Positions 40,283 to 46,346 of a stretch of DNA of 64,000 nt are shown in pieces. The stretch is from Apostichopus japonicus (taxonomy: Eukaryota > Echinodermata > Holothuroidea > Aspidochirotida > Stichopodidae), in NCBI RefSeq assembly GCF_037975245.1, contig NC_092568.1:33698501-33762500 (forward strand), in the 5' to 3' direction. The notes beneath the pieces are model-generated. The model was not told the DNA's origin. It ran no database searches and saw only the letters and a program-made list of their open reading frames with translations. Positions within the stretch are counted from its first letter, which is position 1. The number at the start of each line of letters is the position of its first letter. The position numbers and the translations under genes are program-made.

Positions 40283-40290
40283 GTCTCTGC

Positions 40291-41137
40291 CATGGGCGGC
40301 GATCCGTACTTCCGAGTGGGGGGGGGGGGATATGACCTTGTTGACTATCTAAGCGTAGCGTCACAATGTTTTGGCGCGAAGCGTACAAGAAAATTTTGGG
40401 TTTTACAAACCCTCTAGATGGCCGGAAACGGCACTTCCCGAGGTTTCCAAGCGGCATATACCCAACTTTCAAATAGGGATATCATGTCCGAAATATCTCA
40501 TAATCAGGATCCAAAATACTTTTTTTTTTTTTAAATTTCGGGTGTTATTTTGGGAAAATTGCCCCTGTCAATCTTGTTTCAGGCGCTACGTTAGAATGTT
40601 CGAGAGCTCTTTACATTATTCGATGAAGAAAATTGCCTCATGCAGGCTATTATAGGCCTATACACATGCAATACACAATTACACATAGTAACATTCCTAG
40701 GTACCGATTGCTAGGGCATCCAGGTGAGACGTGTATTAAGCATTACCCTGGTAACATGAGATTCTCAGCTGTTCGAGGGAACACGTGTGTACGTGTGTAG
40801 GCCTACTATATGGGGCCTATATGAATACCATGAGGGTGCATATACTATATCAATACCGTGGGCGCAATAATACATTTTGTTGTTATAGGGCCAATGAAGC
40901 CTACAGTCAACTATTCTTGCTTTATAAAGACGGTTTATTTGAAAAGATCGCACTGCGTTTATGGTAGGCGAGAAATGAAGCTAAAAAAGAGCCGTACATT
41001 CACGATGATGCATAAATGTAGGCATGAACAAATTCTTATCCCTGGCATTTGGTGGGGGGATATGGTGTATTACATCCCCTCCACCCATTTTCATGGGGGG
41101 ATATATCCCCCCTTCCCCCCCAGGATCGCCGCCCATG
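40291..41137. mobile_element. hAT-type element, left copy of a direct pair
   Basis: The 15-bp inverted ends are CATGGGCGGCGATCC and GGATCGCCGCCCATG. It is very similar over its whole length, and in the same orientation, to 45058-46258. It contains the subterminal module (40345-40445), a G-tract next to the left end, and a run of plain sequence without a gene. The left flank is GTCTCTGC (40283-40290); the right flank, GAAGTTGC, is not a duplicate of it. Confidence 0.85.
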
Positions 41138-41560
41138 GAAGTTGCTATATAAGCAGTATTATTACTGTGATTTTTAATCTTACGTCCACGGGACGCAACA
41201 TCTAAAAAATGTTTGAGTCGGCTCAGTAAACCTTGCGTCTAGGCTGCTGTCCTCCATGAAAACCTGCACTTTAAAATACCTCTACATGCAGGAATACGAA
41301 ATACGTAAATACATAATGACCCTGACAATACGCTGGCTTGTGCTTAAGGGAAGCGTGCAGTGGTATGCCTAAACAAGTACAAAAACATTTAATGAAGAAA
41401 CTTCTAATTAATATACAATAACAAAATTACTGTCAAATTGCGAAGAGAGAAATTTGGCTGCAGAGCTTGTTAATAACCATATATGCAGGCATAGACGGCA
41501 TACCATTGCAAACAACTAAAGTGTATATGATAATGTTATAGGCTATGTATATGCTGTGAG

Positions 41561-41980
41561 TTGTCTGAAATCAAGTATAACGAGTGTCTATAGACATGCA
41601 TGCCAGCATAAAAATACGGCACTAGTCAACTGATTTAAGAGAACCACTAATGTTGCGTGCATTTGCCGTGAATGTCGAAAACAAGTAAAACGATTTATAA
41701 TAGACAAAATGCCAGCATAAAAATACTGAATTAGTCAACTGATTTAAGTGAACCATTAAATGTTGCGTGCAATGGCGTGAATGTCGAAATAAAATGAAAC
41801 GATTAAAGTTAGATAAAATGCTAGCATAAAAATACGGTACTTGGCAACTGATTTGAGTGAACCATTAAATTATATCCGTGCATCTGCTATGAATGTCGAA
41901 TATCAAGTAAAACGAGTGTCTAGACATAATGCCAGCATAAAAATACTGTAGTTTTCAACTGATTGAATTGAACCATTAAA
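41561..41980. repeat. Tandem array, unit about 110 bp, almost four copies
   Basis: GCCAGCATAAAAATAC or a close variant recurs near 41602, 41711, 41820 and 41931, each followed by CAACTGATTTRAGTGAACCA and GAATGTCGAA. The spacing is 109-111 bp. Confidence 0.85.
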
Positions 41981-42014
41981 GGAATAACGAAGGCAAGGAT
42001 CATATTTAAAAAAT

Positions 42015-42970
42015 ATAATAAAATACCCTCCTGAAATTTGTTGTACAAACAGGGTGGTACTAAATTTCTTGTAAAACAAATAATCAGATTTTTTCAGCAT
42101 GAAACTTTTGAGATAATAGCTGTCAAAGATGACCTCGTTTTGTACAGAACAACTTTGTAAGTTGTACAAACTGTATACGATGGGTCATTCCGTGTCAAAT
42201 AACGGATGGATGTTGCTGCACCCTCTCCAAAACTTCATAAATTTATTGTATGCTTGGAACACCATGAAATAAGCATATTCTGAAAATGTCAGTTGCATTG
42301 CTTCAACATTGGCCGATTTGTCACACTTTGAAATTCCGCCATTTGTCGCCACAGCAATTAAACATCCTACTACCTTTCTATTACAGATGCATATATAGTC
42401 TATCTGATAAAAAAGGAATAACAAGTTGGGCTATAAAAACATTGTCTTGTGGAGTAAGGTCAACTTAAAAGTGTTAAAATTTTCGATTTTGGTATTTTTC
42501 ACTAAAAAATGTGCTATTTTTAGTGATATATTACTCCTAAACCATCGATTCAGGGTACTTGATTCTTTCAGAGGTTAGTATGTCTAGTAAAAACAATATA
42601 AAATAATGATTAAAATGCTTTCCGATAATATTGCTATTCATGCTGCGATTTAGCAAGAGGAAGGGGTCTTGATGCCAATTTTTCACCAAAGTAACCATGC
42701 TAGAGCTGTGAGGGTTTCATACTTTAATTATAAGTATACAATCCTTACACCTAAGCAAATATCAGGGTATTTGCATTTTTCAATATTAATTTATGAGCTT
42801 GTAAAGTTGCTCTGATGTACAAAAGAGCTCTTCTGTAACAGCCAATAACTCAGAACGCGTCAAGTTAAAAATTCTGATGATTTTTTGCAGGAAGAGAATA
42901 GTACCGGTACTACCCTGTTTGTACAACATATTTCAGGAGGGTCTTATTTTGAAATGAAAAATCTCAAAGT
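42015..42970. repeat. Foldback-type repeat, copy 2, with long inverted arms
   Basis: The left arm (about 42019-42165, ACCCTCCTGAAATTTGTTGT) is an imperfect inverted copy of the right arm (about 42800-42955, ACAACATATTTCAGGAGGGT), roughly 150 bp each. The centre matches 27713-28570. No gene. Confidence 0.7.
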
Positions 42971-44018: not shown

Positions 44019-44190
44019 GGTGTGCACAAGTGGGTGAGAGAGCGGGTCATTGTCCAGTCGTGGATTTTTTCAATCACTGGGGAAGAATTTATCCACTCCC
44101 CCATGTGGCCGACCCCCCCCCCCCCCTTCAACCTCACACGAAGTATGTATATATAAGCACCATTTGACATCCAAATGTTTATTTTTTGTG

Positions 44191-44580
44191 AGGGCGTTGT
44201 GGTCAAGTGGTTAAGGCAGCGGACTTGTGATCTAAGGATTATAGGTTCGAGCCCTGGCCAGATCATTGCGTTGTGTCCTTGGGCAAGGCGCTTTATCTCC
44301 ATTGCCTCTCTTCACCCAGGTGTATAAATGGGGACTTGCGTGGTAACTTGTAAATATAGTTGCGTGCGCCGGTTTGTGGCTGCACCCTATGGGAAGTCCC
44401 CCGGGGGACACGTGGTTGTGGTGCACTGTGGTGCCCCACTGGCAGGAGAGATTGATTGAATTGTGCACACTTTGGTGTGTAGGTGTGACAAGTTACCAAT
44501 GACCAGGGTTAAGTTGTAAAAGTCGTGTGAAAGGGCCTTGGCCCTGTACAAGACTGTAAACCTAAATAAAAAATAATAAT
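44191..44580 (+). mobile_element. tRNA-derived SINE, about 390 bp
   Basis: The head carries an A box (GGTCAAGTGGTTAAGGC, from 44201) and a B box (GGTTCGAGCCC, 44244-44254) spaced as in tRNA. A body with GTGTCCTTGGGCAAGGCGCT follows, a phrase I recall as recurring in invertebrate SINEs. The tail is AAATAAAAAATAATAATAAA. It is transcribed, if at all, by RNA polymerase III. It is a repeat, not a functional tRNA. Confidence 0.8.
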
Positions 44581-45057
44581 AAACCCCCTACATGGGAATT
44601 GGCTTCAGTTTCCCCAGGGCAGAAACCCTCCTTTACAAAATAATTGATTCGCTTCTGGCCCTCCCATAAAACTTCATAAAGCTCTGACCTAAATCAATCG
44701 ATTCAAGTTTGGATTTATTATTATTCATTAGCGCATTCTTGCGTCTCTAGAGCTGCTTCACATACACCTAACGTATAGTCTAAATATGTCTCAGAAAGCA
44801 CCATTTTGAGGGCTAAAAATGTGTTTCCCTACGTGGGAGTTGGGAGGTTTCAATGATCCCAGAGCAGCACCCCTCCTTTATAAAAGCTTTGGATCCACAC
44901 TGATCCTTCTGTCAAGGTTCACGCCCCTACAGAAATCAGTCGACAAAATTTGAACCCGTTCGAAATCCTAAGCACGCCACTGCTATTACGCCTAGACAAT
45001 CTCTTTTCCTCCCCTCTGTGCATTCTTATAATTCAATTCCTCTTCAAACTGAAATAA

Positions 45058-46258
45058 CATGGGCGGCGATCCGTACTTCCGAGTGGGGGGGATATGACCT
45101 TGTTCACTATCTAAGCGTAGCGCCACCATGAGTTGGCGCGAAGCGTACAAGAAAATTTTGGGATTTACAAACCCTCTAGATGGCCGGAAACGGCACTTCC
45201 CGAGGTTTCCAAGCGGCATATACCCAACTTTCAAATAGGGATATCAGGATCCAAAATACTTTTTTTTTAATTTCGGGTGTTATTTTGGGAAAATTGCTCC
45301 TGTCAATCTTGTTTCAGGCGCTACGTTAGAATGTTCGAGAGCTCTTTATATTATTCGATGAAGAAACTGGCCTCATGCAGGCTATTATAGGCCTATACAC
45401 ATGCAATACACAATTACACATAGTTACATTCCTAGGTACCGATTGCTAGGGCATCCAGGTGAAACGTACGTGTATTAACAGGGGCGTCGGAAGCTATTTG
45501 GGATTGGTAAGGAAGATCAGAGTGTGGCCATCTACCATAATTATCGGGGGGGGGGGGACGTTTGGAAGGTCAAACTACGCTACGCGCCACCATTGGTTGG
45601 CGCGTAGCGTAATGGAGAAAATTTTGAAAAATGCCTCCCAGATTGCAGGAAATGGCACTTCCCGAGCTTTTCTTCTGTGCATTCTCCCTTGTCTGTTTTT
45701 GTACCCGATTAATCTTCTGAAACACATTTTGAAGTATGTTTCATTTTGGTTCTTTATTTTATGCCTTTTTTTTCTTCTTAGTGCTACTTTTTTTCTCCCT
45801 TTTTTTTGCGCCGTGAATATTGGTCCGGCGAACCGCTCCGACGCCCCTAATTAAGCATTACCCTGGTAACATGAGATTCTCAGCTGTTCGAGGGAACATG
45901 TACGTGTGTAGGCCTACTATAGGGCCTATATGAATACTATGAGCGTGCATATATGTACTATATCAATACCGTGGGCGCAATAATACATTTTGCTGTTATA
46001 GGGCCAATGAAGCCTACAGTCAACTATTCTTGCTTTATAAAGACGGTTTATTTGAAAAGATCGCACTGCGTTTATGGTAGGCGAGAAATGAAGCTAAAAA
46101 AGAGCCGTACATTCACGATGATGCATAAATGAAGGCATGAAAATATTCTTATTCCTGGCATTTGGTGGGGGGGGGGGGATATGGTGTATTACATCCCCTT
46201 CACCCATTTTCATGGAGGGATATATCCCCCCATCCACCCCCCAGGATCGCCGCCCATG
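45058..46258. mobile_element. hAT-type element, right copy of a direct pair, interrupted by a nested insertion
   Basis: It has the same 15-bp ends as the copy at 40291-41137 and is collinear with it except for the insert at 45479-45849. The left flank is TGAAATAA (45050-45057) and the right flank GTCTCTGC (46259-46266); they do not match each other. The subterminal module is at 45100-45205. Confidence 0.85.
45479..45849. mobile_element. hAT-like miniature element nested in the right copy; empty site known
   Basis: The ends are CAGGGGCGTCGGAAGC and CGCTCCGACGCCCCTA. The empty site is preserved in the other copy near 40730-40740 (GTGTATTAAGCATTACC), which places the insertion exactly and shows at least ATTAA duplicated. 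An original 8-bp TGTATTAA duplication that lost a few bases would also fit. It contains the subterminal module (45570-45665) and a G-tract near the left end. Confidence 0.85.
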
Positions 46259-46346
46259 GTCTCTGCTACTATAGATTACAATTTCATTCATCTTTCGATA
46301 TTATCAGTTGCTTGGGTAAGATTGTCATTTCACCCTGCAGGTTTTA

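Follow-up and report, generated by a model that had tools for sequence, protein, structure and literature searches.

The locus

The window examined here is a stretch of 64 kb (64,000 nucleotides) from the genome of the holothurian Apostichopus japonicus. It contains a block in which two copies of one family of non-autonomous elements, in the class of the miniature inverted-repeat transposable elements (MITEs), enclose a repeat-rich segment that we call the cargo. Ubiquitin-like and ATP-binding cassette (ABC) transporter proteins were noted among the genes of the window, and the block is inserted near the 3' end of a multi-ubiquitin-like gene (46347-47351). A preliminary description had proposed that the outermost ends of the two copies were used together and carried the approximately 4 kb between them. 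The parts of the block are the following, with terminal inverted repeats abbreviated as TIRs and C8 denoting the contig of the window:

40283..40290, + strand: left 8-bp target-site duplication, GTCTCTGC
40291..41137, + strand: copy 1, 847-bp non-autonomous element with 15-bp TIRs, short (S) subfamily; closest fetched relative L058
41138..45057, + strand: cargo, repeat-rich DNA colinear with C8:34255939-34259297
41138..41145, + strand: GAAGTTGC, which would be the leftover half of the former duplication of copy 1; single at the donor boundary C8:34255939
45050..45057, + strand: TGAAATAA, which would be the leftover half of the former duplication of copy 2; single at the donor boundary C8:34259297
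45058..46258, + strand: copy 2, 1201-bp element with 15-bp TIRs, long (L) subfamily; closest fetched relative L020
46259..46266, + strand: right 8-bp target-site duplication, GTCTCTGC

Both copies are full length and lie in the same orientation with identical 15-bp ends, and all their coordinates and flanking sequences were confirmed as first described. The 15-bp TIR end, CATGGGCGGCGATCC, has four sites in the window when up to three mismatches are allowed. All of them are exact and correspond to both ends of both copies, and none of 100 shuffled controls gave four matches. Gaps uncounted and the nested insert of copy 2 excluded, the two copies are 97.3% identical (787 matches and 22 mismatches over 809 aligned bases). 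The block reads GTCTCTGC-copy 1-GAAGTTGC ... TGAAATAA-copy 2-GTCTCTGC. The identity of the outer flanks spans exactly 8 bases, and the inner flanks match neither each other nor the outer 8-mer. Two random 8-mers of the window agree with a probability of about 5e-5, so that the outer match is unlikely to be due to chance.

The source of the cargo

We searched the organism's own genome (671.6 Mb in 35 contigs) for the cargo. The left 411 bases match C8:34255939-34256338 at 95%, ahead of the second-ranked place at 81%. This source locus is on the same contig, 511 kb away from the block. A colinear stretch of the 20 kb fetched around it, C8:34255939-34259297, aligns with the cargo, its two limits falling to the base at the inner ends of the elements, and 3203 of 3299 aligned bases agree (96 substitutions, gaps uncounted). 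The outer flanks of the block (37000-40290 and 46259-49999) have a single 58-bp match in the same 20 kb.

At its left limit the source reads ...CAATTCTA followed directly by GAAGTTGC..., and at its right limit ...TGAAATAA followed directly by TACGG.... Both GAAGTTGC and TGAAATAA are single and undoubled there, both boundaries are free of elements, and none of the three TIR motifs tried occurs in the 20 kb. If GAAGTTGC and TGAAATAA once formed the target-site duplications of copies 1 and 2, the source should show two empty sites, as these boundaries do. The preliminary description had asked whether the cargo exists elsewhere in the genome. It does, free of elements and with limits exactly at the element ends, so that an ancestral presence in the window is very unlikely.

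The left limit of the source falls within a dispersed repeat, for which two relatives of the left part of the cargo (L011 and L012) were compared across the limit. L011, on contig C12, aligns unbroken across it, and the source arrangement therefore looks older. The right 478 bp of the cargo were found at the source and in the window only (40 of the 1402 candidates were scored, and the listed matches came for the most part from an unrelated repeat within the query).

Within the cargo we recognised the following:

41549..41980, + strand: 109-bp tandem repeat
42182..42984, + strand: dispersed repeat, with a 79% relative at window positions 27712-28580
43778..44018, + strand: (TA)n run of 241 bp, about 229 bases longer than at the donor
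approximately 44188..44579, + strand: insert like a short interspersed element (SINE), which the window cargo has and the donor lacks; probably tRNA-derived, judging by its sequence

The element family and its two subfamilies

With each copy as query we fetched the best-scoring 39 places of the genome, 78 copies in total, out of 40 scored of 3153 candidates for copy 2 and 40 scored of 1568 for copy 1; since only the best-scoring copies were taken, the sample leans to intact ones. The 39 other places listed for copy 2 matched at 94-96%, 38 of them end to end with the internal insertion included, so that the long form is a genome-wide subfamily. The 39 other places listed for copy 1 matched at 94-97%, and none of them had the insertion. 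The greater length of copy 2 is mainly due to it:

45479..45849, + strand: 371-bp insertion within copy 2, ends CAGGGGCGTCGGA, 5-bp duplication ATTAA (45474-45478 and 45850-45854), common to the fetched L copies

This insertion appears to be that of another element, which founded a new mobile subfamily.

Perfect 8-bp duplications flank 38 of the 38 full-length L copies (39 were fetched, and L053, which matched over 1073 of 1201, was excluded from this count). The flanks of the 39 S copies were perfect in 26 cases, agreed at 7/8 in eight, at 6 positions in one and at 5 in two, and two copies had a damaged end, which gives 34 of 39 at 7/8 or 8/8. A matched 8-bp duplication is the normal state of this family, and for this reason the unmatched inner flanks in the window need an explanation. 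Sixteen of the 39 S copies have identical flanks, the element being nested there in another MITE (ends CAGGGGCGTATCCAGGA) and the pair having been amplified together. The number of independent S sites is therefore about 24. Of ten such copies viewed, seven showed a 5-bp duplication, L067 one of 6 bp, and L078 and L092 agreement at 5/6 bases.

S copies at the shared nested site: L067, L070, L073, L074, L076, L078-L082, L085, L087, L088, L090-L092

The window itself holds a related element at 3794-4439; its ends are CAAGGGCGGCGGAA, and its 8-bp duplication, ACCTGGAC, is perfect. It has about 100 bp of subterminal sequence in common with copies 1 and 2.

Judged by its sequence, the family would be a high-copy, non-autonomous, cut-and-paste one, and probably hAT. 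The hAT label comes from the TIR style together with the 8-bp duplications. The hAT traits present are the 8-bp target-site duplications and the short 15-bp TIRs at four of four ends in the window. No transposase was seen for the family, and no genome search aimed at one was made. P elements likewise generate 8-bp duplications (PMC1562414). A search with the TIR pattern in viral and genome contig collections gave 0 matches.

Subfamily markers in the two copies

Outside the insertion there are six columns diagnostic for S or L. Copy 1 shows S-type states at 443, 444, 729 and 750, and it has rare bases in common with L058, and partly with L063, L075 and other S copies, at positions 111, 324, 344, 438 and 741. 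Copy 2 shows the L-type states at the same 443, 444, 729 and 750, and its rare bases at 53, 342 and 590 are found in L020 and other L copies. The span over which kinship could be followed is thereby 111-750 for copy 1 with its S kin and 53-750 for copy 2 with its L kin, the outermost 100 bases or so being uninformative for subfamily origin. These patterns argue that neither copy would be recombinant over most of its length.

Probable macrotransposition and its alternatives

We consider it highly probable that the block arose by outer-end macrotransposition of two non-autonomous, probably hAT, elements. In an allele of the locus now found at C8:34.256 Mb, an S-type and an L-type copy would have inserted with like orientation and about 3.4 kb between them. 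With a transposase provided in trans, the left end of the first copy and the right end of its partner may then have served, in a single event, as the two ends of one transposon. The whole block would have inserted 511 kb away, near the 3' end of the multi-ubiquitin-like gene, duplicating GTCTCTGC, and the source would have been left empty or restored to that state, for example by repair from the other homologue. Transposition of a pair by its outer ends predicts a shared outer duplication, a cargo cut at the inner element ends and a source empty at both places. The proposal that the outermost ends acted together is supported by the outer duplication and by the base-exact source of the cargo.

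Several observations weigh against this reading. Two pieces with 77-81% similarity to the subterminal sequence of the family lie to the left of the source, approximately 0.8-1.2 kb from its limit on that side. Only L011 of the two relatives compared reads through that limit, L012 lacking about 230 bp around it and being uninformative, and no relative tests the right limit because it lies in single-copy DNA. The divergence between cargo and source is uneven, with values of 2.1% (55/2621), 8.3% (14/169) and 5.5% (26/474), which would fit a donor haplotype not represented in the assembly, or changes that the repeat-rich DNA underwent later. Neither of the alleles that one would wish to see was found in the single assembly. 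The joined target flanks match the two halves in the window and one weak place (74% over 100 bases), giving no empty target allele, and no source allele with both elements appeared, the source locus of this assembly being empty.

The remaining points of this kind concern the copies themselves. At one diagnostic column, 319, copy 1 has the L state, a 1-base gap that 2 of the 39 S copies also carry. The reverse holds at column 147, where copy 2, together with its closest relative L020 and with L052, shows the S state (C). Both copies have a C at position 180 (window position 40470) that occurs in 0 of 78 relatives (77 have A and one a gap). Finally, copy 1 has a cluster of three private changes, at 71, 75 and 80, together with a rare one at 79 (5/78).

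The C at position 180 may be a trace of exchange between copies 1 and 2. Gene conversion of a short tract, with copy 1 as donor and copy 2 as recipient, was considered and dropped, since the state at 147 is also present in L020 and L052, which leaves only the shared private base at 180.

The alternative that survives best, and which we nevertheless hold to be unlikely, is homologous recombination. A simple element inserted at GTCTCTGC would have been entered by a circle made of the cargo and a hybrid element, or by a gap-repair copy made from the source allele. This would yield the same outer and inner flanks, and partners for it are abundant, to judge from the 3153 and 1568 first-look candidates of the family. 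The private base common to both copies and the three private changes plus a rare one within 10 bases of copy 1 (71-80) could also be counted in its favour. However, it requires a third element and a further step, and it predicts this element as the origin of both the left part of copy 1 and the right part of copy 2. The subfamily markers limit such a contribution to at most about 110 bases at the left end and 97 at the right, unless the third element happened to be a close sister of either copy. The preliminary description had itself named the insertion of a circle as an alternative; the markers disfavour it.

An error of assembly, in which two distant simple insertions had been mis-joined through their similar elements or through the (TA)n run, is in our opinion very improbable. 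The block does contain two similar elements and the 241-bp run, and we depend on a single assembly without reads. However, a mis-join would not make the outer 8-mers equal, and the cargo is no stray copy of the assembled donor stretch, since the SINE-like insert and the 96 substitutions set them apart.

We find scarcely credible a composite insertion produced by reversed-ends transposition with re-replication, as at maize p1, with the flanks joined by end-joining or recombination. The signature at the ends is similar, with two terminal elements and an 8-bp target duplication, but re-replication joins flanks that point apart at the source, and here the cargo is one colinear stretch, in order, between two empty sites. 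We rejected it on this colinearity, from which only a circular or tandem source could rescue it. That two independent insertions had their flanks altered until the outer 8-mers coincided has practically no probability and was also rejected: duplications are decayed or lost (below 7/8) in 5 of 39 S copies, but the statistics of the 8-mers and a cargo foreign to the site, with limits exactly at the element ends, speak against it.

The neighbourhood of the target site

The gene beside the block is one of two multi-ubiquitin-like genes on the minus strand, at 46347-47351 and 54370-56160, which are 64% identical over 600 bp of coding sequence. The second was rejected as a proxy for an empty site, its similarity to the block-adjacent gene being only in the coding part. 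To the left of the target site there is a near-tandem duplication of about 370 bp with 93% identity (38523-38895 and 38916-39277). Before it, at 34593-37035, lies the remnant of a non-LTR (long terminal repeat) retrotransposon in two overlapping frames, with a match to RVT_1 and a weak endonuclease match below the cutoff.

Relation to known systems and significance

In bacterial composite transposons, built from pairs of insertion sequences (IS), the outer ends of the two flanking elements move the segment between them. Unlike in these, no cargo gene was recognised here, and there is no sign of repeated mobility, because no further copy of the right part of the cargo was seen among the 40 scored of 1402 candidates. 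In maize, Ac/Ds macrotransposons were reportedly described by Huang and Dooner in 2008.

Macrotransposition by linked Ac/Ds elements is established in maize (PMC3260210, PMC9910405), and in one case a 28-kb unit was excised and a 10.3-kb unit reinserted (PMC9910405). The likeness consists in two linked elements, the use of their outer ends, the carriage of the intervening DNA and an 8-bp duplication or footprint. The maize cases differ in being genetic events with an active Ac, whereas here a past natural event involving two non-autonomous elements is read from the sequence. The reversed-ends composite insertions likewise carry an element at each end, together with an 8-bp target duplication, but their internal segment consists of two flanks joined, while our cargo is contiguous at its source (PMC4270019).

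In an animal, macrotransposition has been proposed for the Anopheles P-element MITE AgaP2-P12MITE, as an explanation of a chimeric MITE; the passages available give no donor site (PMC1562414), and here the source is located. The reasoning is similar to that applied to Galileo in Drosophila, for which exchanged duplications and chimerism separate ectopic recombination from aberrant transposition. The Galileo cases are inversions with chimeric copies, whereas the present copies are not chimeric-looking over the tested span (PMC2775673). The "composite insertion" of a coelacanth paper refers to nested SINEs and long interspersed elements (LINEs) and has no bearing here (PMC4255032). No animal hAT macrotransposition with its source site was found in the literature searched, most subscription papers being outside its reach.

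The process is known from maize Ac/Ds, and the present block is a well-resolved natural case that involves no new mechanism. For a plausible and seldom demonstrated process, a single assembly now lets us read the target site, the source of the cargo and the two former insertion sites. We lean towards the view that two non-autonomous hAT-type MITEs moved animal host DNA over 511 kb by outer-end transposition with target duplication. If this is true, and given the copy number of the family, moves by pairs of MITEs may be a recurring way, so far uncounted, in which segmental duplications arise in animal genomes rich in MITEs. A genome-wide screen is possible for full-length copies with mismatched 8-bp flanks that can be paired to a neighbour in the same orientation with a matching outer flank. 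Its outcome would show at what frequency host DNA is duplicated by high-copy MITEs.

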